Positions 18,534 to 40,414 of a DNA stretch of 64,000 bases are shown here, in pieces. The stretch's first letter is position 1, and each line of letters begins with the position of its first letter. The notes beneath the pieces were generated by a model. It was given only the letters and a program-made list of their open reading frames with translations. It searched no databases and was not told where the DNA came from. This DNA comes from Marmoricola sp. URHB0036 (lineage in GTDB: Bacteria > Actinomycetota > Actinomycetes > Propionibacteriales > Nocardioidaceae). Made by a program: the position numbers and the translations under genes. The DNA lies in the NCBI RefSeq assembly GCF_000426045.1, contig NZ_AUEP01000004.1:62001-126000 (forward strand), in the 5' to 3' direction.

Positions 18534-18550
18534 TGTCCCATTTCGGGACG
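18534..18550. promoter_or_regulatory. regulon operator site 1 (BVMO promoter)
   Basis: TGTCCCATTTCGGGACG, a 17-bp inverted repeat matching TGTNNCANNNTGNNACA with two mismatches. It contains a perfect GTCCC/GGGAC pair. It is 80 bases upstream of the BVMO start. Confidence 0.6.
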
Positions 18551-18554
18551 CGCG

Positions 18555-18570
18555 TGTCACCCGTGGGACA
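18555..18570. promoter_or_regulatory. regulon operator site 2 (BVMO promoter, 16-bp variant)
   Basis: TGTCACCCGTGGGACA, the same half-sites with a 2-base spacer. Its centre is about 20 bp (two helical turns) from that of site 1, which would place both dimers on one face of the DNA. Confidence 0.5.
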
Positions 18571-18624
18571 GGTGAACTGCCCTCGTCGGTCCCGCCGGGA
18601 TCGACACATCGGCGCGCGACCGAC

Positions 18625-18641
18625 TGTGTCAATCTGGAACA
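18625..18641. promoter_or_regulatory. regulon operator site 3 (activator gene)
   Basis: TGTGTCAATCTGGAACA, an exact match to TGTNNCANNNTGNNACA. It lies 74 bases upstream of the activator's ATG at 18716, suggesting autoregulation. Confidence 0.6.
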
Positions 18642-18715
18642 GTGGACGGGCGCTGCTACCAGCCCTGGGGTGTAATGACCATCACACCTCGGGGGGATAC
18701 GAAGGAGCCGTGCCC

Positions 18716-20521
18716 ATGCCGATGAGGAGCGTCAACGCTGTCGACGCCGCGCGCGAGTACCTGCTGAGCGAAGGTGACCTGCCCGATCACCTCGCCCGTT
18801 CCGTGCGGCCCGATGTCCTCAAGTCCTGGCGTCGCTCGCTGCTCAGCGGCGCCCAGCTGGCGAGTCCCACCCTCGTGTTCAAGGGTGAGCACCACGCCCG
18901 CGCCGCCCTGCGCATCGCCGCCGACCCCGTGCTGAGCCATCTCGCCGACCAGCTCTCCGGGCTCAGCGCCGGCGTCCTGCTGGCCGACCGCGACGCCACG
19001 CTCGTCCACCGGTGGGTCCCAGACCCGGTGATGAACCGGATGTTCGACCGGATCCACGCCGAGACCGGGTTCGACAACAGCGAGGAGTCGATCGGCACCA
19101 ACGGGCTGGGGAGCGTGATCGAGCAGGACGGCCCGATCCAGATCTCCGGTCCCGAGCACCTCGCTGATGCGTTGCGCCCGTTCACCTGCGTCGGCGTACC
19201 CGTCCACCACCCGATCACCCGCCGGCTCGAGGGCGTCATCACGTTGTCGTGCCAGGCCATGTCGGGCAACCCGCTGCTGACCCCGCTGATGACGGCCACC
19301 GCCCAGGAGGTCGAGTCGCGCCTGCTCGCGCAGGCCTCGACCAACGAGCGTCAGCTGCTCGACGAGTACCTCGTGGCCATCGGTTCCCGCCGCGCCCCCG
19401 TGGCCGCGATCGGCCAGGACATCTGCATCGCCGGCCCCAAGGTCACCGAGCTCCTCGAGGGCGTGGACCGGGCGGCGCTGTGGGAGTACGTGCGGGCTGT
19501 GGCGCTGGGCACCAAGACGGCCGAGGACCAGTACGGCCTGAGCGCCGGACGGCTGAGCATCGGGCGCTGCAAGCCGGTCGAGCGGGACGGATTCGTGATC
19601 GGGGCACTGGTCGAGTTCGCCGTCGACCGGACCACACCCGACGAGCCGGTGCACCACCAGGCCCACCTGCCCAAGCCGACGGTCACGCTGCCGGGCAAGA
19701 GTGCGGCCCTGGCCCGGGTCATCGCGCAAAGCACCCGCTTCGCCACCAAGGGCGTGCCGATCCTGATCGAGGGCGAGCCCGGCGTCGGCAAGTTCGCGCT
19801 GGCCCGAGCCGTCCTCGCTTCTGTCGGGGTCGACCAGGAGAAGGTGGCCGTGCTCGACGCGGCGGCCCTGTGGTCCGACGAGACCACGCCGTTCGTGGCC
19901 GTGCTCCGGCGCGAGCTCGAGCTCCAGCCGGATGCCCTGCTCCTGCGCCACCTCGACGCGCTCACGCCGGAGGCGGCCAGCGCCGCAGCCGCGCTCCTCG
20001 ACCGGCTCGACGAGAACACGCCGCGCATCGTGGCCACCCTGACGACCGCCGACAGCCCGGCCCCCGGTCTGCGGCGGCTGATCGACACCGTCGGGGTCGG
20101 TCGGGTCAGCCTGCCGCCGCTGCGCGACCGCCGCGACGACATCGGTCCCACCGCGATCGCCCTGCTCAACAAGCACCGGGGCAACCGGCAGGCCTACTTC
20201 TCGTCGGCAGCGCTGCGCTGCCTGATGCGGGCGCCGTGGCCCGGCAACCTGCGCCAGATGGAGGCCACCATCCGCGGCCTGCTGTCCACTGCGATCGGCC
20301 CGGAGATCGGTCCCGACGCGCTGCCGGCCGAGCTGCAGGGCAACACCCGCAAGCGCGACCTGAGTGCGATCGAGGAGCTCGAGCTCGGGGCGATCCTCGA
20401 GGCGCTGCGTCGTCACGACGGCAACAAGGTGGCGGCCGCGCAGTCGATCGGTATCTCGCGCTCGACCTTGTACCGGAAGCTGCAGGCCTACCACATCGAC
20501 CCGGACAAGCAGTACTTCTAG
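18716..20521 (+). CDS. AcoR/MimR-like transcriptional activator (GAF, AAA+, Fis HTH)
   Basis: A 601-residue regulator. An N-terminal GAF-like sensor (about 60-200, including GFDNSEESIGTNGLG and FTCVGVPVHHPITRRLEGV) is followed by an AAA+ domain with Walker A GEPGVGK near residue 353 and a weak Walker B (DALLLRHLDAL), then a C-terminal Fis-type helix-turn-helix (AAQSIGISRSTLYRKL). The layout is that of sigma-54 activators, but the GAFTGA loop is absent, as in actinobacterial MimR-type regulators that work without sigma-54. ATG 18716 has AAGGAG 8 bases upstream; GTG 18710 is too close to it. It probably senses the island's substrate and activates the units carrying the 17-bp operator. Confidence 0.9.
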   Translation: MPMRSVNAVDAAREYLLSEGDLPDHLARSVRPDVLKSWRRSLLSGAQLASPTLVFKGEHHARAALRIAADPVLSHLADQLSGLSAGVLLADRDATLVHRWVPDPVMNRMFDRIHAETGFDNSEESIGTNGLGSVIEQDGPIQISGPEHLADALRPFTCVGVPVHHPITRRLEGVITLSCQAMSGNPLLTPLMTATAQEVESRLLAQASTNERQLLDEYLVAIGSRRAPVAAIGQDICIAGPKVTELLEGVDRAALWEYVRAVALGTKTAEDQYGLSAGRLSIGRCKPVERDGFVIGALVEFAVDRTTPDEPVHHQAHLPKPTVTLPGKSAALARVIAQSTRFATKGVPILIEGEPGVGKFALARAVLASVGVDQEKVAVLDAAALWSDETTPFVAVLRRELELQPDALLLRHLDALTPEAASAAAALLDRLDENTPRIVATLTTADSPAPGLRRLIDTVGVGRVSLPPLRDRRDDIGPTAIALLNKHRGNRQAYFSSAALRCLMRAPWPGNLRQMEATIRGLLSTAIGPEIGPDALPAELQGNTRKRDLSAIEELELGAILEALRRHDGNKVAAAQSIGISRSTLYRKLQAYHIDPDKQYF

Positions 20522-20555: not shown

Positions 20556-20572
20556 TGTCACAATGTGGCACA
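20556..20572. promoter_or_regulatory. regulon operator site 4 (transketolase operon)
   Basis: TGTCACAATGTGGCACA, an exact match to TGTNNCANNNTGNNACA, 34 bases upstream of the start at 20607. It is further framed by GTCCCGC (20549-20555) and GCGGGAC (20574-20580), giving a 32-bp dyad that could also form a hairpin after the activator gene. Confidence 0.6.
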
Positions 20573-20606: not shown

Positions 20607-21452
20607 ATGCCGACCACCGACCGCGAGCCGCCGAACATCGACGAGCTCCGCGACCGTGCGTACCAGCTGCGCCGGATGATGATGACCATGACCCGGGGCA
20701 AGGGCGAGGGCTACATCGCCCAAGGCCTCGGGATCGCCGACTGCCTGGCCGCCCTCTACTTCCACGAGCTGCGCCACGACCCCGAGCGGCCCGACTGGCC
20801 CGAGCGGGACCGCTTCCTGCTCTCGACCGGGCACTACTCGATCGCGATGTACGCCGTGCTGGCAGCGGCCGGCTACATCGAGGAGGACGAGCTCCCGACG
20901 TACGGGCTCAACGGCTCACGCCTGCCGATGAGCACGTTCGACGACACGGTCGGGGTCGAGATCGTCGGCGGGTCGCTGGGCCACGGGCTCGGCCAGGCGG
21001 TCGGGATGTCGCTGGGGCTGCGGCTCGACGACTCCCCTGGCCGCGTGTACGTCGAGATCTCCGACGGCGAGCTGGACGAGGGATCCACCTGGGAGGCGGC
21101 GATGGCCGGCGCCACCTTCGGGTGCGACAACCTGGTCGTGCTCATCGACTGCAACGGCATCCAGGCCGACGGACCAGTGACGGTGGCGATCGAGCCGGTC
21201 GCGGACAAGTTCACGGCGTTCGGCTGGAGCACCACCGAGATCGACGGCAACGACATGTCCGCCCTGGTGGAGGCCCTGGAGAAGTCGCGGGTCTCCGACG
21301 GCAAGCCGAAGGCCATCGTGATGCGGACGACGCCGGGGTCGGGGGTGCCGACGATCGTCGACCGACCGCGTGCCCACTTCGTGCGGGTCACCGACGACGA
21401 GTGGGCCGGGCTGGTCCAGGAGCTGGAGGACAACCGTGACGTCCACGCGTGA
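20607..21452 (+). CDS. transketolase-like enzyme, N-terminal (TPP-binding) subunit
   Basis: A 281-residue homologue of the first half of transketolase. The thiamine-diphosphate motif is visible as ISDGELDEGSTWEAA followed by LVVLIDCNGIQADG, and the pyrophosphate-side residues GGSLGHGLGQAVG come before it. It needs the separate C-terminal subunit encoded next, as in split actinobacterial transketolases and apiose-type enzymes. It would transfer a two-carbon ketol unit or act on a related alpha-hydroxyketone. The operator at 20556 places it in the BVMO regulon, so it is unlikely to be the housekeeping pentose-phosphate enzyme. Confidence 0.88.
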   Translation: MPTTDREPPNIDELRDRAYQLRRMMMTMTRGKGEGYIAQGLGIADCLAALYFHELRHDPERPDWPERDRFLLSTGHYSIAMYAVLAAAGYIEEDELPTYGLNGSRLPMSTFDDTVGVEIVGGSLGHGLGQAVGMSLGLRLDDSPGRVYVEISDGELDEGSTWEAAMAGATFGCDNLVVLIDCNGIQADGPVTVAIEPVADKFTAFGWSTTEIDGNDMSALVEALEKSRVSDGKPKAIVMRTTPGSGVPTIVDRPRAHFVRVTDDEWAGLVQELEDNRDVHA

Positions 21453-22431
21453 CACCGCACCCCGGGGCCACACCCGGGGGATGGGCGAGCTCATCGACAT
21501 CGCCGACAAGACGACCGTGCTGGCGCCGTTCGGCGAGACCCTCGCCCAGCTGGGCAGGGAGCGCCCCGAGATCGTCGCGCTGACGGCCGACATGGGTCGC
21601 TACAGCGACATCCTGCCCTTCCGCGACGCCCACCCCGACCGGTTCTTCAACGTCGGCATGGCCGAGCAGAGCCTCGTGATGACGGCGGCCGGACTGGCCA
21701 AGACCGGCAAGATCGCCTACTGCACGACGTACTCCGTCTTCGTCACGCGGCGCGCCTACGACTTCGTGGCCATCGCCGGAGCGCACTCGAAGGCCGAGGT
21801 GAAGATCTTCGCCGGCATGCCGGGGCTGACCAACGGGTACGGCGCCACCCACCAGGCGACCGAGGACCTGAACATGATGCGCGGGATCGCCGACCTCACC
21901 ATCATCGACCCGTGCGACGCGACCGAGCTCACCCAGGTGGTGCGCGCAGTGGCCGACATCCCGGGGACGGTCTACGTGCGGCTGCTGCGCGGCAAGGTGC
22001 CGGTCGAGCTCGGCGAGGACTACCGCTTCGTGCCGGGCAAGGCGGCGCTGCTGCGGGAAGGTTCGGGCGACGTGGGAGTGATCTCGACCGGCTACATGAC
22101 GGCGCGGTCCCTCGACGCGGCCAAGGCCGCCGACAACCGAGGCGTGCAGGCGAGCGTCCTGCACGTGCCGACGATCAAGCCCTTCGACACCGCCGCGGTG
22201 GTGGAGTTCGCGCGCCGGCACGACCGGCTGGTCGTCGCCGAGAACCACAAGACGACCGGTGGCCTGGCCAGCCTGGTGACCGAGGCGCTCTACCAGGGCG
22301 GGATCCTGCGACCTCTCCGCCGGGTCGGCCTGGCCGACAGCTTCTTCGAGTGCGGTTCGCAGGAGTACCTCGAGGCGAAGTACGGCGTCGACCTGCCGGC
22401 CGTGACCCGCGCGATCCTCGGAGAGGTGTGA
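21436..22431 (+). CDS. transketolase-like enzyme, C-terminal subunit
   Basis: A 331-residue homologue of the pyrimidine-binding and C-terminal domains of transketolase/DXPS. The catalytic Glu that activates thiamine lies in FFNVGMAEQSLVMTAAGLA, and the C-terminal domain follows from about residue 190. The start chosen is GTG 21436 because GGAGGA is 5 bases upstream and overlaps the previous gene by 17 bases; ATG 21481 is an alternative without a good ribosome site. It forms a heteromer with the preceding subunit. Confidence 0.88.
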   Translation: MTSTRDTAPRGHTRGMGELIDIADKTTVLAPFGETLAQLGRERPEIVALTADMGRYSDILPFRDAHPDRFFNVGMAEQSLVMTAAGLAKTGKIAYCTTYSVFVTRRAYDFVAIAGAHSKAEVKIFAGMPGLTNGYGATHQATEDLNMMRGIADLTIIDPCDATELTQVVRAVADIPGTVYVRLLRGKVPVELGEDYRFVPGKAALLREGSGDVGVISTGYMTARSLDAAKAADNRGVQASVLHVPTIKPFDTAAVVEFARRHDRLVVAENHKTTGGLASLVTEALYQGGILRPLRRVGLADSFFECGSQEYLEAKYGVDLPAVTRAILGEV

Positions 22432-23567
22432 ACCCGCTCCGCATCTTCGCGGCACCGTCCCGCTACGTGCAGGGGCCGGGCGCCCTCGAGGCGCTGGGTT
22501 CGCTCCTGGCCGAGCACGGCACCCGCCCGGTGGTGATCGGCGATGCCTTCGTGCTGGACCTGCTCGGTGAGCGGGTGGGCTCGTTGCTCGTGGAGGCAGG
22601 TCTCTCGGCGACGTACCGCGTGCTGGAGGGCGAGATCACTGCTGCAGCGGCCGACGCGCTCGCGGCTCCGGGCGCCGACGTGGACACCGGGGACGTCGAC
22701 GTGGTGGTCGGCCTCGGCGGCGGCAAGAGCCTCGACGCGGCCAAGGCGGTCGCCCTACGGCTCGACCGGCCGGTGGTCACGGTGCCGACGATCGCGTCCA
22801 ACGACAGCCCGACCAGTGCCGCCGTCGCGATGTACGACGACGGACACGTCATGGTCGGCGTGGACCGGCTCCGGACCAACCCGGCGGCCGTCGTCGTCGA
22901 CACCGAGCTCGTCGTCGCCGCACCGACGGCGTTCCTGAGGGCAGGTGTCGGGGACGCGATCGCCAAGCGCTACGAGGCCGCCGGCTGCTTCGCCGGCACC
23001 GGGGTCACGCCCCTCGGCACCCGGCCGCTCCTCACCGGCGTCGCCATCGCCGACGCCTGCTACGCGACCATCCGGGCCCACGCCGTAGGTGGCCTGCAGG
23101 CCTGTGAGCAGGGGCGCGTGACGCCCGACCTCGAGGCGCTGGTGGAGGCCGTGGTGCTGATGAGCGGTCTCGGCTTCGAGAACGGCGGGTTGTCGCTCGC
23201 GCACTCGCTGACGCGCGGCCTGATGCCCGCTCGCGGTGCCGCGCGGGCGATGCACGGCGAGCACGTCGCCTGGGCGCTGCTAGTGCAGCGCGAGGCCGAG
23301 GGGGCGGCCGAGGAGGAGCTGATCGACCTGACATCGTTCCTGCGCGAGATCGGCCTGCCCATCAGCCTGGAGGAGCTGGGCATGCCTGCGGCGACCGAGG
23401 CCGAGGTGGACGAGATCGCCCGGCTGACGATGACGGCGCCGCACCTCGGCAACCTGGCGCGGTCGATCTCGCAGACCGAAATCGTCGCCGCCATCGGACG
23501 GGTCGAGCGCCGTGCGGACGCTCAGGTCGTGGCCAGCACCACGGCGTCGACCGCGACGGCACCCTGA
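22428..23567 (+). CDS. GldA-like iron/zinc polyol dehydrogenase
   Basis: A 379-residue NAD-dependent dehydrogenase of the glycerol-dehydrogenase family. The nucleotide loop is VVGLGGGKSLDAAKAVA, and the metal ligands are the Asp in AGVGDAIAKRYEA, His in SLAHSLTRG and His in MHGEHVAWAL. It starts at GTG 22428, overlapping the transketolase stop by 4 bases. Glycerol, dihydroxyacetone or another vicinal diol is the likely substrate type, which fits a partner transketolase that makes or uses alpha-hydroxyketones. Its 3' end overlaps the convergent acyl-CoA synthetase gene by 46 bases. Confidence 0.87.
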   Translation: MNPLRIFAAPSRYVQGPGALEALGSLLAEHGTRPVVIGDAFVLDLLGERVGSLLVEAGLSATYRVLEGEITAAAADALAAPGADVDTGDVDVVVGLGGGKSLDAAKAVALRLDRPVVTVPTIASNDSPTSAAVAMYDDGHVMVGVDRLRTNPAAVVVDTELVVAAPTAFLRAGVGDAIAKRYEAAGCFAGTGVTPLGTRPLLTGVAIADACYATIRAHAVGGLQACEQGRVTPDLEALVEAVVLMSGLGFENGGLSLAHSLTRGLMPARGAARAMHGEHVAWALLVQREAEGAAEEELIDLTSFLREIGLPISLEELGMPAATEAEVDEIARLTMTAPHLGNLARSISQTEIVAAIGRVERRADAQVVASTTASTATAP

Positions 23568-25603
23568 CCGGCTTCCAGCAGCAGCACCGGGTTGGCGTCG
23601 AAGCCGACGACGGTCTCCGAGGCCGCCATCGCCTCGGATGCGCGGACGACGGCCTTGACCCAGGCGTCCACGTCAGCCGGTGGAGCACCCCGGACACCGC
23701 CGAGCACGGGGGCGATGCGCAGCGACTGGATCGCCTCGTGGACCTCGTCGGCCGTGCACGGCGCCAGCAGCACCGCGGTGTCCGGCAGCGCCTCGACGTA
23801 CAACCCGCCGGCACCGACGAGCACCACCGGACCGAACACCGGGTCGATGCTGGCCCCGATGACGACCTCGTGCAGGCCGCGCAGCATCGGCGCGACCAGG
23901 AAGCCGTCCAGGACCACCCCGTGCAGCGCCGCCGCGACCGCGATCCGGTGTGCCGCGGCCAGCGCCTCCTCGGCAGAGGCACACCCGAGCTCGACGAGGC
24001 CGAGGTCTGACTTGTGGCTGACCGCGTCGGTGCTGCCCTTGACCACCACCCGATCCACCGCGAGTCGGGTGAAGGCGTCCGCCACGTCCTCCGGGAAGGA
24101 GACGATCTCGCGCGGCACCGTCGGGACACCCATCTCCGCCAGCCGCGCCAGGCTCTCCGCCTCGTTGAGCCGGCCTGGAGCGCCGCTGGGGCCGGCTGTG
24201 AGCGCAGGACGCGGCAACGAGTCCGCCCGGGCCATCCGTCGTCGATGGGCGAGGTACTGCGCCAGGGCAGCGACGGCCGAGGACTCCTCCTCGAAGACGG
24301 GCAGACCGGCGTCCACGAAGGGTGCGGCGACGTTGGGTTGCGGGACGGCCAGCACGAGCGGCGTACCCGAGGCGGCGAACTCGGCCGCGTCCCGGGCGAA
24401 CCGCTCGACGTCGTACCCACGACCCGCGACCGGGATGCCCAGCAGACAGGCGTCGACGCCGGGATCGGCACCGAGCACCGGCAGGACCTTGCCGAACAGC
24501 CCACTGTCGGTGAGCAGCGCCGCGGTCACGTCGACGGGGTTGGTGGTCGACGCGAAGTCGGGCAACACCTCCTTGAGGCGCGCGTCCGTCGTCGGCAGCA
24601 GCGATGCCAGCGGCAGGCCGGCGTCCTCGGCCGCGTCGGCGGCCAGCACGCACACGGCACCGGAGTTGCTGACCACCGCGAGGTTCGAGCCGGTCGGCTG
24701 CCAGTCCTGGAGGTAGAGCTCGGTGGCCGCGACCAGCTCGCGCACGCTGTGCACCTGCCAGATGCCGACGCGCTCGAGGAAGGCATCGAGCACCCGCCGC
24801 TCCGTGGCCAGCGCACCCGTGTGCGACGCAGCGGCCCTGCTGCCGCTGCTGCTGCGACCTCCGACCAGCGCGACCACCGGCACGTCGTTGCGCCGTGAGA
24901 GCTCACCGATCCGCACCAAGGACTCGGGATCGTTGACGCTCTCGAGGTAGAGCATCAGGAGCCGCAGCTCGGGGTCCTCCAGTGCCGCGGCAGCCAGCTC
25001 GGCGGCGCTGACGTCGGCGTCGTTGCCGGTCCCGTGCGCGTAGCGCACCCCGATCCCCCGACGCCTGAGGATGCCGTAGGGCACCGAGGCCAGGGCACCG
25101 CTCTGGCTGATGATGGCGACCGGGCCGTCCGCCGGTGGCTCCTCGGTGAACAGCGTCGAGAAGCCGAGGACCGCGCCGGAGTGGAAGCTGGCCAGTCCCT
25201 GGGAGTTGGGGCCGACGATGCGCAGGCCGGCGTCGCGCGCGTGGGCGAGCATCTCCGCCTGGAGGGCAGCGCCTTCGGGTCGACCGGTCTCCGTGAAGCC
25301 CGAGGACATGACCACGGCGCCCTTGACCCCCATCCGTGCTGCCGTCGCGACTGCCTCCACCGCAGCAGCACCGGGTACGGCGATCAGCGCGATGTCCGGC
25401 ACCGTCGGGACCTCGGTCAGGCTGGGGTACGACTGCATGCCCTGGACGGTGTCGCGCCTCGGGTTGACCGGGTACACGCGTCCGGCGTACCCGAACTCGC
25501 GCATGTACCGCAGCGGGCGACCGCCGATCTTCTCGGTGTCGTCGGAGGCTCCCACCACCGCGACCGATGCGGGTCGGTGGAAGACGTCGAGCGGATGGAC
25601 CAT
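23522..25603 (-). CDS. ADP-forming acetate/acyl-CoA ligase, single chain
   Basis: A 693-residue enzyme of the acyl-CoA synthetase (NDP-forming) family: CoA-binding Rossmann domain (1-130, VAVVGASDDTEKIGG), ligase-CoA domains carrying the phosphorylated His in ASHTGALA, and a C-terminal ATP-grasp domain from about residue 475 (VVKGSTDAVSHKSDLGLV). It interconverts acyl-CoA, ADP and phosphate with acid, ATP and CoA. It is the last gene of the operon that starts at 31221. The alpha and beta parts are fused in one chain, as is usual in actinobacteria. The acyl substrate is unknown. Confidence 0.88.
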   Translation of the reverse strand: MVHPLDVFHRPASVAVVGASDDTEKIGGRPLRYMREFGYAGRVYPVNPRRDTVQGMQSYPSLTEVPTVPDIALIAVPGAAAVEAVATAARMGVKGAVVMSSGFTETGRPEGAALQAEMLAHARDAGLRIVGPNSQGLASFHSGAVLGFSTLFTEEPPADGPVAIISQSGALASVPYGILRRRGIGVRYAHGTGNDADVSAAELAAAALEDPELRLLMLYLESVNDPESLVRIGELSRRNDVPVVALVGGRSSSGSRAAASHTGALATERRVLDAFLERVGIWQVHSVRELVAATELYLQDWQPTGSNLAVVSNSGAVCVLAADAAEDAGLPLASLLPTTDARLKEVLPDFASTTNPVDVTAALLTDSGLFGKVLPVLGADPGVDACLLGIPVAGRGYDVERFARDAAEFAASGTPLVLAVPQPNVAAPFVDAGLPVFEEESSAVAALAQYLAHRRRMARADSLPRPALTAGPSGAPGRLNEAESLARLAEMGVPTVPREIVSFPEDVADAFTRLAVDRVVVKGSTDAVSHKSDLGLVELGCASAEEALAAAHRIAVAAALHGVVLDGFLVAPMLRGLHEVVIGASIDPVFGPVVLVGAGGLYVEALPDTAVLLAPCTADEVHEAIQSLRIAPVLGGVRGAPPADVDAWVKAVVRASEAMAASETVVGFDANPVLLLEAGQGAVAVDAVVLATT

Positions 25604-25608
25604 CAGGA

Positions 25609-25977
25609 TCAGGCCTTCCTCGAGAAGACGGGGACGAGACCGCGTCCGGCTCCGGAGGGCTCGAACGCGACGCCCACGCCGTCACCCGGACGCAGCTCGC
25701 GTTCGGCGGTGCGGCCCATCACGACCGGCCCCTCGTCCAGCTCGACCAGCACCAGGCCGGCGGGGTCGCCGCCGTCGACGGTGACGTGCACCCAGGTGAC
25801 GGCCACGCAGGTGCCGGTACCGACGGCGACACGCGGAGTCCGACCGCGGGCTCCGCAGCGCGAGCAGTGCTCGGCGGGCAGGTACGACGTGTTGCTGCAC
25901 TCGTCGCAGACCGCCAGCACGAAGCGTGGTCCTCCGCGCGTCCAGTCGGTGGCCACGTCGACCGGCAGCCCGTTCAC
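25609..25977 (-). CDS. DUF35 zinc-ribbon/OB-fold protein
   Basis: A 122-residue protein with an N-terminal rubredoxin-like zinc ribbon (CDEC near 24-27, CSRC near 38-41) and a C-terminal OB fold (VTVDGGDPAGLVLVELDEG). Such DUF35 proteins bind thiolase-fold partners and, with the steroid aldolase Ltp2, form an active complex. It starts at GTG 25977 and overlaps the thiolase-fold gene by 4 bases (GTGA), supporting a physical pair. Confidence 0.9.
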   Translation of the reverse strand: MNGLPVDVATDWTRGGPRFVLAVCDECSNTSYLPAEHCSRCGARGRTPRVAVGTGTCVAVTWVHVTVDGGDPAGLVLVELDEGPVVMGRTAERELRPGDGVGVAFEPSGAGRGLVPVFSRKA

Positions 25978-31298: not shown

Positions 31299-31315
31299 TG
31301 TACGAGATTGCGACA
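31299..31315. promoter_or_regulatory. regulon operator site 5 (ADH operon)
   Basis: TGTACGAGATTGCGACA matches TGTNNCANNNTGNNACA with one mismatch and lies 77 bases upstream of the ADH start. Confidence 0.55.
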
Positions 31316-31346: not shown

Positions 31347-31363
31347 TGTCGCAAAGTGGGACG
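31347..31363. promoter_or_regulatory. regulon operator site 6 (lactonase operon)
   Basis: TGTCGCAAAGTGGGACG matches the shared dyad with one mismatch. It lies 76 bases upstream of the metallo-beta-lactamase start and 48 bases from site 5 centre to centre, so each divergent unit has its own copy. Confidence 0.58.
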
Positions 31364-32235: not shown

Positions 32236-32640
32236 ATGTCGGTCCTCGTCGACTACCGCTGCACCGCGTGCGGCGTACGTGCCGAGCACTGGGAGCCCAG
32301 CCCGCCCCCGTCGACCCGCAGCTGCGCGTCGTGCGGGGCCGAGGCCCGCCGCCTCTTCGCGGCGATCGGGCTCTCCAGCGGCTCGCCCACCGACACCCGC
32401 GGCGCGGCAGCCCCGGCAGCCGCGCCGCGGGAGCCAGCCCGGCGCGAGCCGACGCTGTGCCAGCAGTACCCCCAGATCCCCGGCCTGTGCCACATGACGC
32501 CGAGCGCACAGCGCCGGTGGGTGGCGACCTACACCCGCGACACCCGCTCCCAGGAACGCGAGCTCGAGCGCCAGGAGACGGCCGCTCGCGAGAAGGCGCC
32601 GGTCATGACCGACGCGATCCAGCACACCCACCAGCCCTGA
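32236..32640 (+). CDS. FmdB-type zinc-ribbon protein
   Basis: A 134-residue protein with an N-terminal zinc ribbon (CTACG and CASCG, residues about 9-36) of the FmdB/putative regulatory family, then a Pro/Ala-rich linker and a charged helical C-terminus. It follows the lactonase-like gene by 8 bases and ends 4 bases from the convergent SDR gene. Function of this family is unproven; a metal- or redox-linked regulatory or chaperone role is only a guess. Confidence 0.75.
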   Translation: MSVLVDYRCTACGVRAEHWEPSPPPSTRSCASCGAEARRLFAAIGLSSGSPTDTRGAAAPAAAPREPARREPTLCQQYPQIPGLCHMTPSAQRRWVATYTRDTRSQERELERQETAAREKAPVMTDAIQHTHQP

Positions 32641-32644: not shown

Positions 32645-33439
32645 TCAGCGGATCGTCCAGCCACCGTCCGCGACGAAGCAGGCGCCGTGGCAGAAGCTCG
32701 CGGCGTCGCTGGCCAGGAACAACGCCAGCTCGGCCAGCTCCTCGGGCTGGGCGTGGCGTCCTGCAGGGACGCTGCGCACCGACTCCATCACGGCGGCGTC
32801 GCCCTCGTCGAAGAGCGCCCGTGTCATGCCGGTCTCCACGGCGCCGGGGCAGATCGCGTTGACCCGCACCCCGAGCTGTCCGTAGTCGAAGGCGAGCTGG
32901 CGGGTCAGGCCGATGACGCCGTGCTTGGAGGCCGTGTACGCCGTGCCGCCCCCACCAGCAACGATCCCGGCGATGGAGGCGGTGTTCACGATGGCCCCGC
33001 CGCCGTCCTCCAGGAGTGCCGGCATCAGCGACCGGGTGACCAGGTAGGGACCGGTGAGGTTGACGCCGATGATCTTGGTCCAGAGCGCCTCGTCGGTCTC
33101 CAGGATCGGTGCGTAGTCGTCGAGGATGCCGGCGTTGTTCATCAGCAGGTCGATGCCACCGAGCAGCTCGACGCTCCTGGTCGCCGCGGCGGCCACGGAT
33201 GCGGGGTCGGCGACGTCCACCTCGACGGCGTACGCCGTGCCACCCTCGGCCTCGACCTCCTTGGCCACTGCCTCGACCGCCTCGAGGTTCCGGTCCCAGA
33301 GCACGAGGGTCGCGCCGGCACCGGAGAAGCGGAGTGCGGATGCCCGGCCGATGCCGGAGCCTCCTCCGGTCACGACGCCGCGCCTGCCGTGCAGGACGGG
33401 GTCGGTGGTGCCGACCGAGAACGGGCTGGAGGTGGTCAT
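32645..33439 (-). CDS. SDR-family oxidoreductase
   Basis: A 264-residue classical SDR: GGGSGIGRASALRF cofactor loop, NNAGILDDYAPI, and the catalytic set in NTASIAGIVAGG followed by YTASK. WDRN after strand 2 suggests NAD(H). ATG 33439 overlaps the ABC gene's stop by 4 bases, so it is the last gene of the ABC operon that begins at 38514. It would act on a ketone or alcohol form of the imported compound. Confidence 0.9.
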   Translation of the reverse strand: MTTSSPFSVGTTDPVLHGRRGVVTGGGSGIGRASALRFSGAGATLVLWDRNLEAVEAVAKEVEAEGGTAYAVEVDVADPASVAAAATRSVELLGGIDLLMNNAGILDDYAPILETDEALWTKIIGVNLTGPYLVTRSLMPALLEDGGGAIVNTASIAGIVAGGGGTAYTASKHGVIGLTRQLAFDYGQLGVRVNAICPGAVETGMTRALFDEGDAAVMESVRSVPAGRHAQPEELAELALFLASDAASFCHGACFVADGGWTIR

Positions 33440-36048
33440 GCGAGCTCCTTCCGAGCACTCAGGATCCTGCGCAGGCGGCGCAGGCTGTCGGCCGAGCTGA
33501 CCAGCGCGAGGAGGGTCAGTCCGCCCGTGAAGATGTAGCTGGCACCGTCGGTCAGGCCGAGCACCGAGACCAGGCTCTGCGCGACCACCAGGATGAAGGC
33601 GCCGATGGTCGCGCCGACCAGCGAGCCGTGCCCGCCGGACAGCGCCGCGCCACCGAGCACCGGGGCAGCGATCGCCAGCAGTGTGAAGGAGTTACCGGCG
33701 TTGGGATCGCCGATGCCCACCTGCGCGGCCAGGATCATGCCCGCCACACCGGCCAGGATGCTGCAGACCAGGTAGCAGCAGGCACGGACCGTCGTGGTCG
33801 GGATGCCGAGTCGTCGGGCGAAGACACCGTTGAGGCCGACGGCCCGGACGCGCAGGCCGAAGCCGGTACGGCGCAGGAACCCGTCGATCACCACCAGTAC
33901 GGCGACGAGCACGATGAGCGAGTACGGAACGGGGCCGAGCCGCGACATCATCATCTTCATCAGCTCGGGCGAGATGACCCCCGCCGCGGTGGGCCGCAGC
34001 ATCAGCGCGACGCCGGACGCGATCCCGAGTGTCGCGATGGTCGCGATCACGGGCGAGAGCCCGATGCGTTCGACCAGCAGTGCGTTGACCAGACCGACGG
34101 CTCCGCCCACCACGAGGGCCACCATGAGTGACTTGAGCAGCACCGAGGTGGCGTTGCCGTCCTGCACCCAGGACGAGGCGACGACGACGGTCAGCGTCAT
34201 CGTGGCGCCGACGGAGACGTCGATGCCGCCGACGAGCAGCACGAAGAACTGGGCGGCCGCGACCGCGACGAGCGGCAACGCCAGCAGCATCACGTTGAAG
34301 ATGCTCAGCTCGGTCAGGAAGGTCGGGTTGCGCGACTGGGTGAACGCCCCGAGCAGCACCATCAGCGCGACGAGCGCGACCAGACGCAGCCCGTCGGCCG
34401 AGACCTTGGTGCGCCACCCGGTACGCCGCTTCGCGCGGGGCTGGGCCGGACTCTCCGCGGGGGTCGCGTCGGGCGCGGCCGCGTCCTCGTCGACGGCGAC
34501 CGCGTTCGGGTCGATGGCGAGCTCGTGCTCGACGGCGAAGGCCGCGACGATCGACTCCTCGGTCGCCCCCTGCCCGGGCATCGAGGAGGTGACCTTGCCG
34601 CGCGACATCACCAGGATGCGGTCGCACAGGCCGGCCAGCTCGGAGGCGTCAGAGCTGACCACGACCACACAGCTGCCGTGGTCGGCGATCTCGCGGAGGA
34701 AGCGGTAGATGTCCATCCGCGAGCGCACGTCGACGCCCTGCGTGGGCTCGTCGATCAGCACCACGCGGGGCGACATCGCCAGCACCTTGCTCAGGGCCAC
34801 CTTCTGCTGGTTGCCACCCGACAGCTCGGCCGGGCTCTGGGACGGGCTGCCGATCCGGATCCGGTACCGCTCGATGGCGTCGTGCACGAACCTCCGCTCG
34901 CGCCGGGTGCGTACGACGCCACGGTCGGACAGCTCGTCGAGGACGCCGAGACCGAGGTTGTCGGTGATGGTGAGGCCCGCGAACAGCGACTCCCCACGTC
35001 GGTCGGAGCTGAGGTAGACGACTCCGTGCTCGATCGCCTCCGGATAGGTGCGGATCGTCGTGTCGCCGGCAGTCACGGTGCCGTCGACCTCGCCGTACCT
35101 CGCCAGACCGCGCAGCATCGGGACCTGCCCGTTGCCGTCGGCCCCGGCGACACCCACGATCTCGCCGGCGCGCAGCTCGAGGTCGACGGGACCGAACCCG
35201 ACACCCCGGAGCTCCTTGCACGCGAGCAGCAACGCCGCCTCGGGCCCGGCGGGTGCCCGATCGGGGAACTCCAGGTCGACGCGGGTGCCGGCCATCAGCT
35301 CGACGAGCCGCTGGGGGTTGACGTCGCCGATCTCGTGGGTGCCCTGGTGGCGTCCGTCGCGCAGCACCGTGACCCGGTCGGCGACCCGCATCACCTCGGA
35401 GAGCCGGTGGGTCACGAAGAGCACGGCGGCACCAGCGGCGGCGGCGTCCCGCATCAGGCCGAGCACGACGTCGACGCCCGCGGAGTCCAGCGCCGAGGTG
35501 GCCTCGTCGAGGATCAGGATGCGGGGCTTGCTCGCGACGGCTCGCACGATCTCGACCAGCTGCCGGTCGCCCGCCGGCAGCTCCGACGCTGGGAGGTGTG
35601 GGTCGATGTCGAACCCGTGCTGGAGCAGGAGCTCCTCGGCCCACGAGGTCACCCGCGAGTACGACGGCCGGCTCTCCGGGGGCGTGCCGAGGTAGAGGTT
35701 GCGGGCCACCGAGAGCTCGGGGACCAGCGAACCGTCCTGGAAGACGGTGACCGCACCGAGTCGCTGGGCCCGGCGTGGGTGGTGTCGCGACACGTCGGTG
35801 TCACCGATGCGCACCGTCCCGCTGTCGCGCTGCACCGTGCCAGCCACGACGCCGACGAGCGTGGACTTGCCCGAGCCGTTCTCGCCCACCAGCGCGTGGA
35901 TCTCGCCCGCCTCCAGCGTCAGCCCGACGTCGTCGAGGGCCTGCACCGCGGCGTACCGCTTGGACAGGCCGCTCGCGTCGAGCACCCGGCTGGTCGGTCG
36001 CGGCGATCCGGCCACCAGCGGCGGTGAGGTGGAGATGGTGTTGGACAC
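33436..36048 (-). CDS. fused ribose-type ABC ATPase and permease (RbsA-RbsC in one chain)
   Basis: An 870-residue fusion. Residues 20-510 hold two ATP-binding domains as in RbsA/MglA: first Walker A GENGSGKST and Walker B ILILDEATSAL, then a second domain with a degenerate A loop (GADGNGQVPML), signature LSGGNQQKVAL and VVLIDEPTQGVDV. A charged linker (about 510-545) joins a 320-residue RbsC-type permease with the family motif LLVGGIDVSVGATM. These are normally separate proteins. With the upstream permease and binding protein it makes a CUT2-class importer. It overlaps the SDR gene (ATGA). Confidence 0.9.
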   Translation of the reverse strand: MSNTISTSPPLVAGSPRPTSRVLDASGLSKRYAAVQALDDVGLTLEAGEIHALVGENGSGKSTLVGVVAGTVQRDSGTVRIGDTDVSRHHPRRAQRLGAVTVFQDGSLVPELSVARNLYLGTPPESRPSYSRVTSWAEELLLQHGFDIDPHLPASELPAGDRQLVEIVRAVASKPRILILDEATSALDSAGVDVVLGLMRDAAAAGAAVLFVTHRLSEVMRVADRVTVLRDGRHQGTHEIGDVNPQRLVELMAGTRVDLEFPDRAPAGPEAALLLACKELRGVGFGPVDLELRAGEIVGVAGADGNGQVPMLRGLARYGEVDGTVTAGDTTIRTYPEAIEHGVVYLSSDRRGESLFAGLTITDNLGLGVLDELSDRGVVRTRRERRFVHDAIERYRIRIGSPSQSPAELSGGNQQKVALSKVLAMSPRVVLIDEPTQGVDVRSRMDIYRFLREIADHGSCVVVVSSDASELAGLCDRILVMSRGKVTSSMPGQGATEESIVAAFAVEHELAIDPNAVAVDEDAAAPDATPAESPAQPRAKRRTGWRTKVSADGLRLVALVALMVLLGAFTQSRNPTFLTELSIFNVMLLALPLVAVAAAQFFVLLVGGIDVSVGATMTLTVVVASSWVQDGNATSVLLKSLMVALVVGGAVGLVNALLVERIGLSPVIATIATLGIASGVALMLRPTAAGVISPELMKMMMSRLGPVPYSLIVLVAVLVVIDGFLRRTGFGLRVRAVGLNGVFARRLGIPTTTVRACCYLVCSILAGVAGMILAAQVGIGDPNAGNSFTLLAIAAPVLGGAALSGGHGSLVGATIGAFILVVAQSLVSVLGLTDGASYIFTGGLTLLALVSSADSLRRLRRILSARKELA

Positions 36049-36147
36049 GGTGGGTTCGCTCTCTGTCTCGCCCGGTCGAATGAAGGCGGGTGCGGCAAGT
36101 CCGCAGCCGGGACGGGACGCGGTGGTCGCGTCCCGTCCCGGCCCCGG

Positions 36148-37431
36148 TCACTGCAACATGCGGCTGATCAGCGCGTCGGGCACGAGCACGCTCGGACCCG
36201 GGTAGTCGTCGGGACGCTTCGGGTCGTAGACGCCCTTGACGGCCTTGACGAACGGCTGCGGCATGATCATCTGGTTCTCGACCTTCTTGCCGGCCAGCAG
36301 GTCCATCACCGCGGTGACGGCTGCTCGTCCCTGCCAGTTCAGGCCGTTGGTGAAGTAGAGCTCGAACGCCTTGTCGGTGCCCTGGCGCTGCTGCCACTCC
36401 TTGAAGAGCCCGTTGTTCGAGGTCCACGTGACCAGTGCCGGGGTGACCTTGCCGGCCTTCTCGTACGCCGAGATGATCTGCGGCATCGGGTCGGCGTAGT
36501 CGTAGAAGATCCCCTTGGCGTCGTCGCCCGAGCTGACCAGGGCGGAGGCGGCCTGGTAGACGCCGGCCGGCGTCCAGTTCGTGTCGAGCTTCTTGCCGAC
36601 GGTGATCCCACTGCCCTTGATCTTGTCCTCGAAGCACTTGTTCCAGGCCTGACCCTGCGGGTTGCCCGGCGTGCCGTTGAAGATCGCGACGTCACCGCTG
36701 AGCTTCAGGTCGTTCGTGGCCACGTCGGCCATGTCCTCGCCGGTCGCACAGGTGTCGCCGTGCACCTGGGCCGCGACCGCGGACTCGGGTGCGTCCGGCA
36801 CGGGCCCGACGTACGACGCGATCTTGGCGCCCTGCTGCGACGCGGCCGTGAAGGCCGGCAGTGCCGCGGGACCGAAGTCGTCGTAGGTCACGATCGCCTT
36901 GGCGCCCTGGGCTGCCAGGCTGCGGACGTTGGACTGGAACGTCGCCAGGTCTCCCTGTGCGTCGGTCGACAGGATCTTGCCGACCTCGGGGTAGGTGAGG
37001 GCCTGGAGGATGATCTCCATCTTGGAGAACTTCCGCCACTGGTTCTGGCCGAAGCCGTCGGCGATGCCGAGCGTCACCTTGCCGTTGCCCACGGTGCACG
37101 ACGCCCCCTTCCAGCACTCGAAGGCCTTGTCGAGCTTCGCCTGCGGCAGCGTCAGGGTCGCCCGGGCAAAGGCGTCCTGGACGGTGTCGGGCAGGCTGTC
37201 TAGCTTGACGTCGGCCTGGAAGGCCTTGTTGACGGTCTCCTGGACGGCGGCGGGGTCGACATCGATCTTGCTGCCGGCACTCCCCTTCGCGTCGGACGAG
37301 GACCCACTCGACCCACCATCGGACGAACCGCAGGCCGCCGTGAAGGCGAGGGCCGCGGCAACCACGACGGTGGTCGCGGTCGAGCGAGCGCGGGTGCTTC
37401 TTCCACCCTGGCGGCGCACACTGATTCGCAT
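36148..37431 (-). CDS. CUT2-type substrate-binding lipoprotein
   Basis: A 427-residue periplasmic-binding-protein-like lipoprotein. The signal and lipobox end at a Cys near residue 34 (AFTAACGSS), followed by a Ser/Gly linker. The mature part has two lobes of the peripla_BP_4 type (VTLGIADGFGQNQWRKF early, ATNDLKLSGDVAIF later). It is longer than ordinary ribose-binding proteins because of an extra N-terminal helical stretch of about 60 residues with two Cys (ECWKGASC). The ligand cannot be read. Confidence 0.87.
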   Translation of the reverse strand: MRISVRRQGGRSTRARSTATTVVVAAALAFTAACGSSDGGSSGSSSDAKGSAGSKIDVDPAAVQETVNKAFQADVKLDSLPDTVQDAFARATLTLPQAKLDKAFECWKGASCTVGNGKVTLGIADGFGQNQWRKFSKMEIILQALTYPEVGKILSTDAQGDLATFQSNVRSLAAQGAKAIVTYDDFGPAALPAFTAASQQGAKIASYVGPVPDAPESAVAAQVHGDTCATGEDMADVATNDLKLSGDVAIFNGTPGNPQGQAWNKCFEDKIKGSGITVGKKLDTNWTPAGVYQAASALVSSGDDAKGIFYDYADPMPQIISAYEKAGKVTPALVTWTSNNGLFKEWQQRQGTDKAFELYFTNGLNWQGRAAVTAVMDLLAGKKVENQMIMPQPFVKAVKGVYDPKRPDDYPGPSVLVPDALISRMLQ

Positions 37432-37434
37432 GGA

Positions 37435-38514
37435 CTACTCCTGACTCTTCTTGTTGCTGGTCACGCCCGGGGTGGACGGACCGCCCGGTGGCTCGTCCGG
37501 CGTACGACGCACGGTGAGCCAGCGGACGTTCTTGGTGGTCGCGACGGCCGCGAGGCCGACGCTGAGGACGAGGCCCTCGACGACCAGGGAGACGCCGGAG
37601 GAGAAGCCGCGGACGCGGAAGATCTGCTCCAGCACGACGATGAACGTGGCCCCGAGGATGGTGGCCGCGACCCGCACCCGGCCGCCTGCGATGGAGGCAC
37701 CACCGAGCACGACCGCGACCACCGAGGTCAGCAGGTACGGCGAGCCGAGGGTGAGGTCCGGCGTGGTGATCTGCCCGGCCAGGAACACACCACCGATGCC
37801 GACCAGCACGGTGGCCGTCACCCAGGCGGTGATGCGCTGCCGCGTGGCCGCGAGACCGCTGTGCTCGGCGGCCGCACGTCCCACGCTGCTGGCCGAGAGC
37901 CGGCGACCCGAGGTGTGGAACTTCAGCCACAGGGCCAGGACCACGGCGACGAGTACGGCGATGACCAGGATGATGCTGATCGCACCGATGCTCGACCGGG
38001 CGATCTCGGAGAGCTTGTCGGGGACCCGCGTGATCGCCAACGTCTGGCCGCGGTACATGCGCGTCGCGCCGGCGATCAGCTGGCCGGTGGCGAGCGTGAC
38101 CACCAGCGCGTTGAGGCGCAGCACCTCGACCAGGAAGCCGTTGACGAGGCCGATCACGATCGTCGCCACCAGACACATCACCAGTGCCTTGACCAGCGCG
38201 TCGTTCGAGCCGGCCGCGCTCTTCAGGATGATGACGCCGACCAGCGTGATGGTCGACGGGATGCTGAGGTCGATGCCACCCGTGCCGATCACGAAGGCCT
38301 GGCCCAGGGCAACGAGTGCCATCACCCCGATGACCGGGGTGAGGGTGGCCAGGTTGACGCGGCTGAACAGGTTCACGTCCAGGAAGACCAGCGAGACGAG
38401 GACCAGCCCGATGTTGGCGAGCAGGATGCCCTGTCCGGGCAGCACGAACGCGGGCCGACGCGGCTGCTGGGAGCGCGTCGGACGCTCCGCCGTCGGTGCG
38501 GTGCTACCGGCCAT
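37435..38514 (-). CDS. CUT2-type ABC permease
   Basis: A 359-residue RbsC-like membrane protein with about ten helices and the family signatures FVIGTGGIDLSIPS and VVLGGASIAGGRVR. It is the first gene of the operon 38514 to 32645. The second permease is fused to the ATPase downstream, so the channel would be a heterodimer of unlike permeases. An operator copy lies 96 bases upstream. Confidence 0.9.
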   Translation of the reverse strand: MAGSTAPTAERPTRSQQPRRPAFVLPGQGILLANIGLVLVSLVFLDVNLFSRVNLATLTPVIGVMALVALGQAFVIGTGGIDLSIPSTITLVGVIILKSAAGSNDALVKALVMCLVATIVIGLVNGFLVEVLRLNALVVTLATGQLIAGATRMYRGQTLAITRVPDKLSEIARSSIGAISIILVIAVLVAVVLALWLKFHTSGRRLSASSVGRAAAEHSGLAATRQRITAWVTATVLVGIGGVFLAGQITTPDLTLGSPYLLTSVVAVVLGGASIAGGRVRVAATILGATFIVVLEQIFRVRGFSSGVSLVVEGLVLSVGLAAVATTKNVRWLTVRRTPDEPPGGPSTPGVTSNKKSQE

Positions 38515-38610: not shown

Positions 38611-38627
38611 CGTACCAATATGAGACA
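38611..38627. promoter_or_regulatory. regulon operator site 7 (ABC operon)
   Basis: CGTACCAATATGAGACA matches TGTNNCANNNTGNNACA with one mismatch, 96 bases upstream of the permease start. An 11-bp palindrome, CTGTGACACAG, lies just beyond it at 38633-38643. Confidence 0.5.
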
Positions 38628-38653
38628 TGGTTCTGTGACACAGGCCCGGCTAC

Positions 38654-39520
38654 CTAGGCGCCGAGGACGTGGTCGCGCAGCTTCGCCAGCCGGTCCAGCT
38701 CGACCAGCATCAGGTCCGGGGTGTCCCCCATCAGCGCCATGTTCACGTGGGAGACGCCGTTGCGCTGGTAGGCCTCGAGCATGGCCTCGTCGGCCGCGCC
38801 GGGAGCGGCTCCGACGGGCACCGAGTCGGGGTCCCGACCCGCTTCCTCGACCAGCTGGCGGAAGACCGGGATCGACTTCTCCAGCGTGGGATCCGCGAGC
38901 GGTGGCGTCGGGTACCAGACGTCGGCCCAGGCGGCCGCGTGCTTCATCGTCAACGGCCCGCTCCCACCGAGGTAGACCGGCGGGTGCGGCTGCTGGACCG
39001 GCTTGGGCCAGATCCAGCTCGGCTGCAACGAGACGAACTCACCGTCGAACTGCGCGACGTCGTTGCCCCAGATCTGGCGCATCATCTGCACCTGCTCGCG
39101 CACCCGGCGGTGCCGGGTCCTGAAGTCGATGTCACCGTGCGTCTCGAACTCGTCGGCGTTCCAGCCGAAGCCGACACCGAAGGCGAACCGGCCGCCGGAG
39201 AGTCGGTCGACCGACGCCACCAGCTTCGCGGTGTGCACGGTGTCGCGCAGCGCGAGCAGGCAGATGCCGGTGCCCACCTGGAGCGTGGTGGTGGCAGCCG
39301 CCGCGAAGCTGCAGCTGATGAACGGGTCGTAGGTCCGCTTGTAGAAGTCGGGCAGCACACCCCCGCCGTACGACTCGGGGTAGTCGGTCTCCCGGGAGAC
39401 CGGTATGTGCGAGTGCTCCGGGAAGAACATGCTGGCGAAGCCGCGGTCCTCGATCTCGCGGGCCAGCGGCCCGGGGTCGAGGTCGAGGTCGGTGCTGAAG
39501 ACGTAGACGCCCACCTTCAT
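38654..39520 (-). CDS. LLM-class (F420/FMN) oxidoreductase
   Basis: A 288-residue luciferase-like monooxygenase-family protein of the F420-dependent subgroup common in mycobacteria and Nocardioides. Typical segments are VGTGICLLALRDTVHTAKLVA (given in two parts, VGTGICLLAL and HTAKLVASVDRLSGGRF), FGVGFGWNADEF and VYLGGSGPL. It would use reduced F420 or FMN to oxidise or reduce a carbonyl or C-C double bond. The start is ATG 39520 with GAGGAG upstream. An operator copy sits 77 bases upstream, inside the end of the neighbouring SDR gene. Confidence 0.88.
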   Translation of the reverse strand: MKVGVYVFSTDLDLDPGPLAREIEDRGFASMFFPEHSHIPVSRETDYPESYGGGVLPDFYKRTYDPFISCSFAAAATTTLQVGTGICLLALRDTVHTAKLVASVDRLSGGRFAFGVGFGWNADEFETHGDIDFRTRHRRVREQVQMMRQIWGNDVAQFDGEFVSLQPSWIWPKPVQQPHPPVYLGGSGPLTMKHAAAWADVWYPTPPLADPTLEKSIPVFRQLVEEAGRDPDSVPVGAAPGAADEAMLEAYQRNGVSHVNMALMGDTPDLMLVELDRLAKLRDHVLGA

Positions 39521-39584
39521 GGGGACTCCTCGGGCGAGGGCGCCGTTCCATCGGGGCGCCGGGGCCTGAACGTAGGCAGGCGCC

Positions 39585-40364
39585 TCAGCGTGCGGCTGTG
39601 TCAGTTCGCGACAGGTCCTGGAAGGTCCCGTCGACGGTGATGCCGCCGTCCACCTCGAGCACGACGCCGTTCACGAAGGACGCGTCCGGCCCCGTCAGGA
39701 ACGAGATGGCGGCCGCGATCTCCTCGGACCGGCCGAACCGCCCCAGGGGTGTACGACGCAGCAGGATCTCGCGGTCGAGCGCACCGGTGTCGAAACCGGA
39801 CAGCATCATCGGGGTCTCGATGTAGCCCGGCGCCACGGCGTTGACCCGGATGCCGTCCCGGCCCCACTCCGCGGCCAGGGTGCGGGTCAGTCCGACGATC
39901 CCGGTCTTGGCCGTGGAGTACGACAACCGCTGCGGCAGCCCGAAGGTCGACCCCACCGACGCGAGGTTCACGATCGCCGCGCTGTCCGACCGCACCAGCA
40001 GGGGGTACGCCGCCCGGCTGCACCGCATCGTGCCGCCGAGGTTGACGGCCATCTCGAAGTCCCACCGGAGGGAGTCGATGTCCTGGGCCGGCGTACGGGA
40101 GATGACGCCGGCGTTGTTGACCAGCACGTCGAGGTGGCCGAGTGAGCGCAGGCACTCGTCCACCGACGCGTCGTCGGTGACGTCGAGGACCGCCTCGGCG
40201 ACGTCGAGCCCGGCACCCACGAGCTCGGCGACGCTCGCCTCGAGCAGGCCGCGGTTCACGTCGGTGAGGACGACGCGCAGGCCGTCCTCGGCCAGTCGTC
40301 GGGCCGTGGCCAGCCCGAGGCCCTGCGCCGCGCCGGTCACCAGGGCCACCCGTGGATCGGTCAT
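39585..40364 (-). CDS. SDR-family oxidoreductase
   Basis: A 259-residue classical SDR with TGAAQGLGLATARRL, NNAGVISRTP and the catalytic Ser plus YSTAK (NLASVGSTFGLPQRLSYSTA). VLTDVNRG after strand 2 suggests NAD(H). It follows an operator copy by 34 bases and precedes the LLM gene, whose own operator lies within its last codons. It is the outermost member of the regulon seen here. Confidence 0.9.
   Translation of the reverse strand: MTDPRVALVTGAAQGLGLATARRLAEDGLRVVLTDVNRGLLEASVAELVGAGLDVAEAVLDVTDDASVDECLRSLGHLDVLVNNAGVISRTPAQDIDSLRWDFEMAVNLGGTMRCSRAAYPLLVRSDSAAIVNLASVGSTFGLPQRLSYSTAKTGIVGLTRTLAAEWGRDGIRVNAVAPGYIETPMMLSGFDTGALDREILLRRTPLGRFGRSEEIAAAISFLTGPDASFVNGVVLEVDGGITVDGTFQDLSRTDTAAR
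39597..39613. promoter_or_regulatory. regulon operator site 8 (LLM gene)
   Basis: TGTGTCAGTTCGCGACA matches the shared dyad with one mismatch, 77 bases upstream of the LLM start. It overlaps the last codons of the SDR gene, so coding sequence is constrained to carry it. Confidence 0.5.
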
Positions 40365-40397
40365 GCCCAGACGCTAGGCCGGCGTACGCCCCGGCGA

Positions 40398-40414
40398 TGT
40401 CCCACAACGCAACA
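40398..40414. promoter_or_regulatory. regulon operator site 9 (SDR gene)
   Basis: TGTCCCACAACGCAACA matches TGTNNCANNNTGNNACA with one mismatch, 34 bases upstream of the SDR start at 40364. Confidence 0.55.

Follow-up and report, generated by a model that had tools for sequence, protein, structure and literature searches.

Within a 64,000-bp stretch of the Marmoricola sp. URHB0036 genome (hereafter the window; positions 62001-126000 of contig C3 in an assembly of 4.83 Mb and 22 contigs), we observed that a 17-bp inverted repeat with a consensus of roughly TGTCNCANNNTGNGACA lies at the starts of all transcription units definable in a 21.9-kb block, eight sites in all. Judging from sequence comparison, this dyad is probably the operator of a regulator encoded at 18716-20521 on the plus strand, which would switch on an island of 23 genes in eight units. 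A preliminary description of this DNA had proposed an undescribed Baeyer-Villiger monooxygenase (BVMO) regulon with the regulator as its predicted binder and a copy of the dyad at each transcription unit. A single regulon under this central gene is supported by features established here, namely the sites, their placement and conservation with orthologues and distant homologues, their ranking by a weight matrix, the gene set, and the status of the regulator as the single HTH_8 match of the whole genome. The operator and gene set appear to be undescribed, our searches of an open-licence library having listed no account of either, but "BVMO regulon" proved too narrow a label because the 23 genes include a lactonase, CoA ligases, a split transketolase, a sugar-type ABC importer and an ACAD10/11-like pair. 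The proposed extent of 18534-40414 also fell short, as the BVMO unit runs on through acyl-CoA dehydrogenase, kinase and SDR genes to about 13072.

Two of the dyads match the pattern exactly, at the promoters of the regulator (18625-18641) and of the transketolase-GldA unit (20556-20572). Five carry one mismatch, at the zinc alcohol dehydrogenase (Zn-ADH) unit (31299-31315), the metallo-beta-lactamase-fold (MBL) lactonase unit (31347-31363), the ABC-transporter unit (38611-38627), the LLM gene (39597-39613) and the SDR gene (40398-40414), and one carries two, at the BVMO promoter (18534-18550). All eight are predicted operators listed without strand, and all were located where the preliminary description had placed them. 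A 16-bp variant at 18555-18570, likewise strandless and reading TGTCACCCGTGGGACA, is present as described but is probably no separate operator, and we rejected it on the grounds that its spacing is not kept in relatives. Two further window matches had gone unlisted: 8418 (one mismatch), rejected as a regulon member since it lies inside an open reading frame (ORF) at 8116-8691, and 59415 (two mismatches). At up to one mismatch the window holds 8 matches against 0.78 expected, a count reached by 0 of 100 shuffles, and the 21.9-kb block holds 7 against about 0.05 expected. The whole genome yielded 17 distinct places plus one overlapping register at this threshold, compared with 11 for a reversed control pattern, and 7 of the 17 fall in the block (P of about 1e-13 by Poisson, for a block picked post hoc); three copies genome-wide are exact, of which two are in the window. 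At up to two mismatches the window total of 10 does not exceed the 11.4 expected by chance, being equalled or passed in 68 of 100 shuffles, so the site at 18534 rests on its conservation.

Ranking by a symmetric matrix recovered the same set. The matrix was trained on 16 sites outside the window, chosen by consensus similarity from the outside sites then known; because one of these, the BVMO site common to the relatives G218 (treated as Nocardioides sp. URHA0032) and G251, is the reverse complement of 18534, the score of 18534 is not independent. The eight 17-bp sites took ranks 1-8 in the window with scores of 21.5 to 16.46, followed by 8418 at 16.45 and then a fall to 10.6. Across 399,680 background positions, from 400 kb of this genome, the top score was 12.51, with none reaching 12.6, and 8 of the 9 window matches scoring at least 16 lie at promoters, so the matrix favors promoters over random positions.

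Conservation in the two relatives follows the sites promoter by promoter. The best named match of the regulator, at 73% identity, is in Nocardioides sp. URHA0032, and both G218 and G251 retain the gene order of the split transketolase N-terminal (TKN) and C-terminal (TKC) subunits and GldA, the regulators and the divergent BVMO, with two extra genes between transketolase and regulators in G251. The BVMO-side site is identical at 17 of 17 positions across the three genomes, in a 19-bp invariant block with diverged flanks, and the regulator and TKN sites are present and, in the case of TKN, aligned in both relatives, although G251 shows two mismatches at TKN. In G218 the cluster is split, some 26 kb of one contig separating the two parts; in G251 the second part is found on a different contig. 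Despite the split, G218 carries counterparts of all eight window sites at orthologous promoters: sites stand at the corresponding positions of the SDR gene (71% identical; 10319, two mismatches), the LLM gene (83%; 11117) and the ABC permease gene (63%; 12085), all with an offset of 110000, and the divergent lactonase/Zn-ADH promoter has a pair at 19923 and 19961 (same offset), as in the window. On the two G251 contigs examined, all five island promoters present carry a site, and one member of the lactonase/Zn-ADH pair there agrees with 31347 at all 17 positions. Places matching with no more than one mismatch number 19 in G218 (control 8), of which 6 are in the island and 3 by a second regulator, and 10 in G251 (control 4), of which 3 are in the island, 2 are overlapping registers of the TetR-type 17-mer considered below and 5 lie elsewhere. 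As an aside, the regulator occurs in two tandem copies in both relatives, spanning 6889-10483 of locus L027 and 9703-13341 of locus L029, and once in the window, and the second copies are without a site of their own.

The dyad also accompanies more distant homologues of the regulator. Of 21 homologue loci, at 30-73% identity, 9 carry a dyad deviating at no more than one position in the 300 bp upstream, against 0.12 expected from resampled sequence; the sample includes four tandem copies from two genomes, without which the count is 7 of 17, and ten of its loci were taken from 44 plasmid records with a homologue. A second G218 homologue (4598-6253, minus strand; 32% identical), not counted among the 21, has three dyads around it, flanked as it is by C2:104372, the sole exact G218 site outside the island, and two one-mismatch sites. 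A 215-kb plasmid of Cnuibacter physcomitrellae (Microbacteriaceae) holds most of the island in rearranged form, with identities of 67% for BVMO, 65% for TKN, 67% for TKC, 64% for the lactonase, 63% for Zn-ADH, 62% for aldehyde dehydrogenase (ALDH), 69% for LLM, 44-54% for the ABC genes and 34% for the regulator. Here sites occupy three divergent promoters, lactonase/Zn-ADH and thiolase/BVMO with one mismatch each and permease/regulator with two; the raw count is four sites at up to two mismatches in 37 kb, and the inner 9.8 kb has one site at up to one mismatch against 0.02 expected.

The regulator has an AAA-like region and a C-terminal Fis-type helix-turn-helix (HTH_8; 50.1 bits, cut-off 22). 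Its Walker A motif is retained as GEPGVGK, the Walker B region is degenerate and reads LLLRHLD, with the acid of the expected hhhhDE lost, and GAFTGA gave no match in the regulator, nor was it seen in the aligned regions of homologues. A genome search for sigma-54 (PF04552) returned 0 matches, with the control positive in 4 of 14 known genomes. By sequence, then, the protein fails the test for a sigma-54 activator while its architecture is derived from one. Since GAFTGA, the Walker B acid and a sigma-54 match are all missing, it probably acts at ordinary promoters, by analogy with enteric TyrR, an AAA+/HTH regulator that lacks the sigma-54 loop and uses sigma-70 (PMC6375630).

Site placement falls into recurring distances. 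The gaps from site to start codon are 80 bp for BVMO, 74 bp for the regulator, 76 bp each for the lactonase and LLM, 96 bp for the ABC permease, 34 bp for TKN and 33 bp for SDR. The preliminary description had assigned five copies to 74-80 bases, which stands for 18534, 18625, 31347 and 39597; the fifth, 31299, lies 26 bp from the longest Zn-ADH start, but orthologue alignments, which begin at residues 15-16, favor the in-frame ATG at 31221, where the gap is 77 bp and membership of the class is plausible. Of the two copies put at 34 bases, TKN kept that value and SDR measured 33. The site at 39597 falls within the final codons of the SDR gene that precedes LLM instead of occupying an intergenic gap. 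Window and G218 gaps agree closely for TKN (34/34 bp), LLM (76/75), SDR (33/35) and the ABC permease (96/92), and stand at 74/80 for the regulator, 80/89 for BVMO and 76/67 for the lactonase. The 33-35 and 74-80 bp classes differ by about four helical turns, for which leaderless versus leadered transcripts would be one explanation. At the regulator promoter, a putative -10-like box, TGTAAT by our own reading, lies 30 bases 3' of the site and would set the site near -50; the box is TGTAAC in G251 and did not align in G218.

On these grounds we infer that the regulator binds the dyads and activates the island, with activation as our best estimate of the direction of control. A regulator dimer would most likely bind the dyad through its Fis-type HTH, its N-terminal part most likely sensing a pathway substrate or intermediate, and would activate sigma-70-type promoters, its own included, from sites just 5' of or over the -35 region.

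Several observations weigh against this reading. No place scored in the genome exceeds C2:253872 (22.0), yet it falls within the coding frame of another ABC substrate-binding lipoprotein and was rejected as a promoter site for that reason; besides the eight sites, it and window position 8418, also within an ORF, are the only scored places above 16. Twelve of the 21 homologue loci, two of them second tandem copies, show no dyad with one mismatch or fewer in the 300 bp upstream, and of the 19 places at this threshold in G218, 10 lie outside the island and the second-regulator locus. The gap at Zn-ADH is not kept, measuring 77 bp in the window and about 34 in G218, and ACAD, APH and AMP-ligase gave no match in the Cnuibacter stretch. 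As to a sensory N-terminus, the 14 families listed for the regulator at E<=1 do not include GAF, which one of three members scanned has at E 6.1e-4. The structure of the regulator predicted from three sequences was unusable, with a pLDDT of 41.7.

With a gap of 33-34 bp, two of the sites would also suit repression, and the strongest competing account, which we consider unlikely but not negligible, holds that the regulator does bind the dyads, mainly as a ligand-released repressor. A dimer bound 33-34 bp from the TKN and SDR start codons could block RNA polymerase; however, most sites lie 74-96 bp upstream, and the -10-like box would put the regulator's own site near -50. Far less credible to us is the proposal that the dyads belong to another regulator, for instance of TetR type, with the 18716 gene merely one of its targets. 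Other regulators can own similar dyads, because C5:178844, the third exact genome copy, adjoins a TetR gene and its 17-mer is found again in G013 and G251, and a TetR-like gene also lies at 41399 of the window. Yet the C5 17-mer has a matrix score of only 13.6, below all eight sites, and the dyad accompanies homologues of the 18716 gene at unrelated loci. That the dyads are chance or compositional palindromes, as the window total at up to two mismatches equal to shuffled expectation might suggest, has almost no probability left given the excess at up to one mismatch, the clustering in the genome, the matrix ranking and the promoter-by-promoter conservation, the last of which in our view already refutes it.

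The C5:178844 copy itself reads TGTTACAGTGTGACACA and stands immediately 5' of the TetR gene. Based on this adjacency and the recurrence of the 17-mer in G013 and G251, we rejected it as a regulon member and regard it as probably a conserved TetR operator. In a further genome, G299, the pattern has six exact matches, of which five are one repeated 17-mer, TGTAACAGCGTGTTACA, found on C11, C16 and C17 in both orientations; the pattern thus also admits this other repeated dyad.

The island's BVMO (16816-18453, minus strand) shows the type I fingerprint, with two GxGxx(G/A) motifs at 21 and 191 and FxGxxxHxxxWP at 165, and 7 of its 9 best rows against solved structures are named cyclohexanone monooxygenase. 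Downstream on the same strand lie an acyl-CoA dehydrogenase (ACAD) with residues of ACAD10/11-LvaC type (15614-16819, start approximate) and an APH-type kinase (14585-15607). ACAD11 is matched by these two genes half for half, the kinase portion by the APH gene and the dehydrogenase portion by the ACAD gene. Compared with ACAD11 chains, the pair keeps VHGDYRIDN with the kinase Asp, YDGPSEVH with the catalytic Asp and RLGPARMTHVMR in the Arg/His/Arg helix (residues matched to published numbers by our own count, with a one-residue offset), and because of these residues a 4-hydroxyacyl-CoA intermediate is likely. The ACAD and APH pair follows the BVMO in G251 too (79% and 57%), and no match was seen beside the BVMO of G218. 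Two SDR genes end the unit (13072-13824 and 13843-14592, minus strand), the former conserved in G218 and G251 at 73-75% identity.

On the plus strand, the regulator is followed by TKN (20607-21452), TKC (21481-22431, start approximate) and a GldA-like iron alcohol dehydrogenase (22428-23567; 325.6 bits, just below the 336-bit glycerol dehydrogenase cut-off). On the minus strand lie Zn-ADH (30136-31221, likely start 31221), an aldehyde dehydrogenase of succinate-semialdehyde type (28671-30107; 607 bits, cut-off 646), an AMP-forming acyl-CoA ligase (27110-28660), a thiolase with a protein we take to be DUF35-like (25609-27113), and an ADP-forming acyl-CoA ligase (23522-25603). NCBIfam gave no match for the presumed DUF35-like protein, and the matching Cnuibacter genes (L061) are annotated OB-fold and thiolase. 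Divergent from Zn-ADH is the MBL lactonase (31440-32228, plus strand), which has the HxHxDH motif as HLHFDH at 105 and resembles acyl-homoserine and 4-pyridoxo-lactonases. Co-linear with it is a small zinc-ribbon protein (32236-32640, plus strand), 45-58% identical in Cnuibacter, G218 and G251 and presumably FmdB-like, for which NCBIfam returned no match. The remaining minus-strand genes encode an SDR, an ABC ATPase-permease fusion, a sugar-type substrate-binding protein and a permease (32645-38514), an F420-type LLM oxidoreductase (38654-39520) and an SDR oxidoreductase (39585-40364). At the island edge, a NAD-dependent epimerase-like ORF (40428-41300, minus strand) has no continuous translation in the displayed frame, pointing to a disrupted gene or a sequence error.

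These genes suggest a pathway that would import and oxidize a polar ketone or lactone-yielding compound, in a proposed order of steps. The BVMO would convert the ketone to a lactone, which the MBL enzyme would open; Zn-ADH and ALDH would then oxidize the product and the ligases form CoA esters. Removal of a 4-hydroxyl group would fall to the APH kinase with ACAD and chain shortening to SDR and thiolase, with transketolase and the GldA-like enzyme processing a ketol fragment. An alternative route, from acetone via methyl acetate with formaldehyde fixed by transketolase, was dropped, as no esterase or methanol dehydrogenase was recognized among the 23 genes, for which no dedicated search was made.

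Comparison with known systems places the regulator only loosely. It shares a C-terminal HTH_8 and AAA lid with AcoR/DhaR-type enhancer-binding proteins, and DhaR is its best NCBIfam match, at 128.9 bits against a 551-bit cut-off, whereas it lacks GAFTGA and the Walker B acid in a genome without a sigma-54 match. No AcoR or MimR model is among the 24 families listed for it, and the preliminary label "AcoR/MimR-like" holds only in a loose sense. TyrR is the nearest working model, its dyad being given as TGTAACG-N4-CTTTACA (PMC6375630): both systems combine a TGT...ACA dyad with a regulator lacking the sigma-54 loop, but the regulator scores 39.6 bits against the 576-bit TyrR cut-off, and half-site and pathway differ. 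For Rhodococcus BCP1, conserved palindromes are reported at the prm and smo promoters, where they cover the -35 boxes, and a Fis-family regulator gene lies close to that of prm (PMC4428276); compared by description, they may be the same kind of site. As with the Fis-family regulators beside prm and mim clusters, MimR among them and set beside ours by description only, an actinobacterial Fis-family gene adjoins a monooxygenase cluster, with the difference that those enzymes are di-iron monooxygenases and ours is a BVMO.

Chn-type cyclohexanol degradation clusters, which combine a BVMO, a lactone hydrolase and alcohol and aldehyde dehydrogenases, share this logic with the island, which differs in its MBL-fold lactonase, CoA ligases, transketolase and sugar-type ABC importer. 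The Pseudomonas Lva pathway, whose genes are under a sigma-54-type regulator, and mammalian ACAD10/11 resemble the island in pairing a kinase with an atypical acyl-CoA dehydrogenase bearing the key residues, but the island pair sits by BVMO, lactonase, split transketolase and GldA-like genes. ACAD10/11-type chemistry has lately been demonstrated in mammals (PMC12440821), and the predicted pathway, if true, would be a further natural setting for it. The dyad offers a testable operator for a group of actinobacterial regulators whose genes neighbor those for monooxygenases and degradation, links 23 genes as a single predicted pathway, and could be used to find more regulons and build inducible sensors. 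We put at even chances the broader proposition that it is a family-wide operator of GAFTGA-less, sigma-54-independent actinobacterial derivatives of enhancer-binding proteins, here controlling a mobile pathway, not described before, in which Baeyer-Villiger oxidation and lactone opening are combined with ACAD10/11-type 4-hydroxyl removal and transketolase chemistry; if so, the regulons of such regulators would be readable from sequence.

A search of 396 genomes of the phylum for the split transketolase found only the window's own at E<=1e-85. A Variovorax replicon carries TKN (60%), TKC (55%) and GldA (41%), with no match to ACAD or APH at 1e-15. One 33-kb stretch of a marine Paracoccaceae plasmid holds TKN (71%), TKC (77%), GldA (56%), thiolase (56%), AMP-ligase (47%), ACAD (40%) and APH (34%). 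Because this plasmid has the core genes and no match to the BVMO at 1e-15, its gene content suggests that the BVMO joined an older core later. On the Paracoccaceae plasmid pLA6_001 (744-24000), the transketolase-GldA-ACAD-APH-thiolase core lies near sugar transport and kinase genes, neighbors that hint at a sugar-like substrate.

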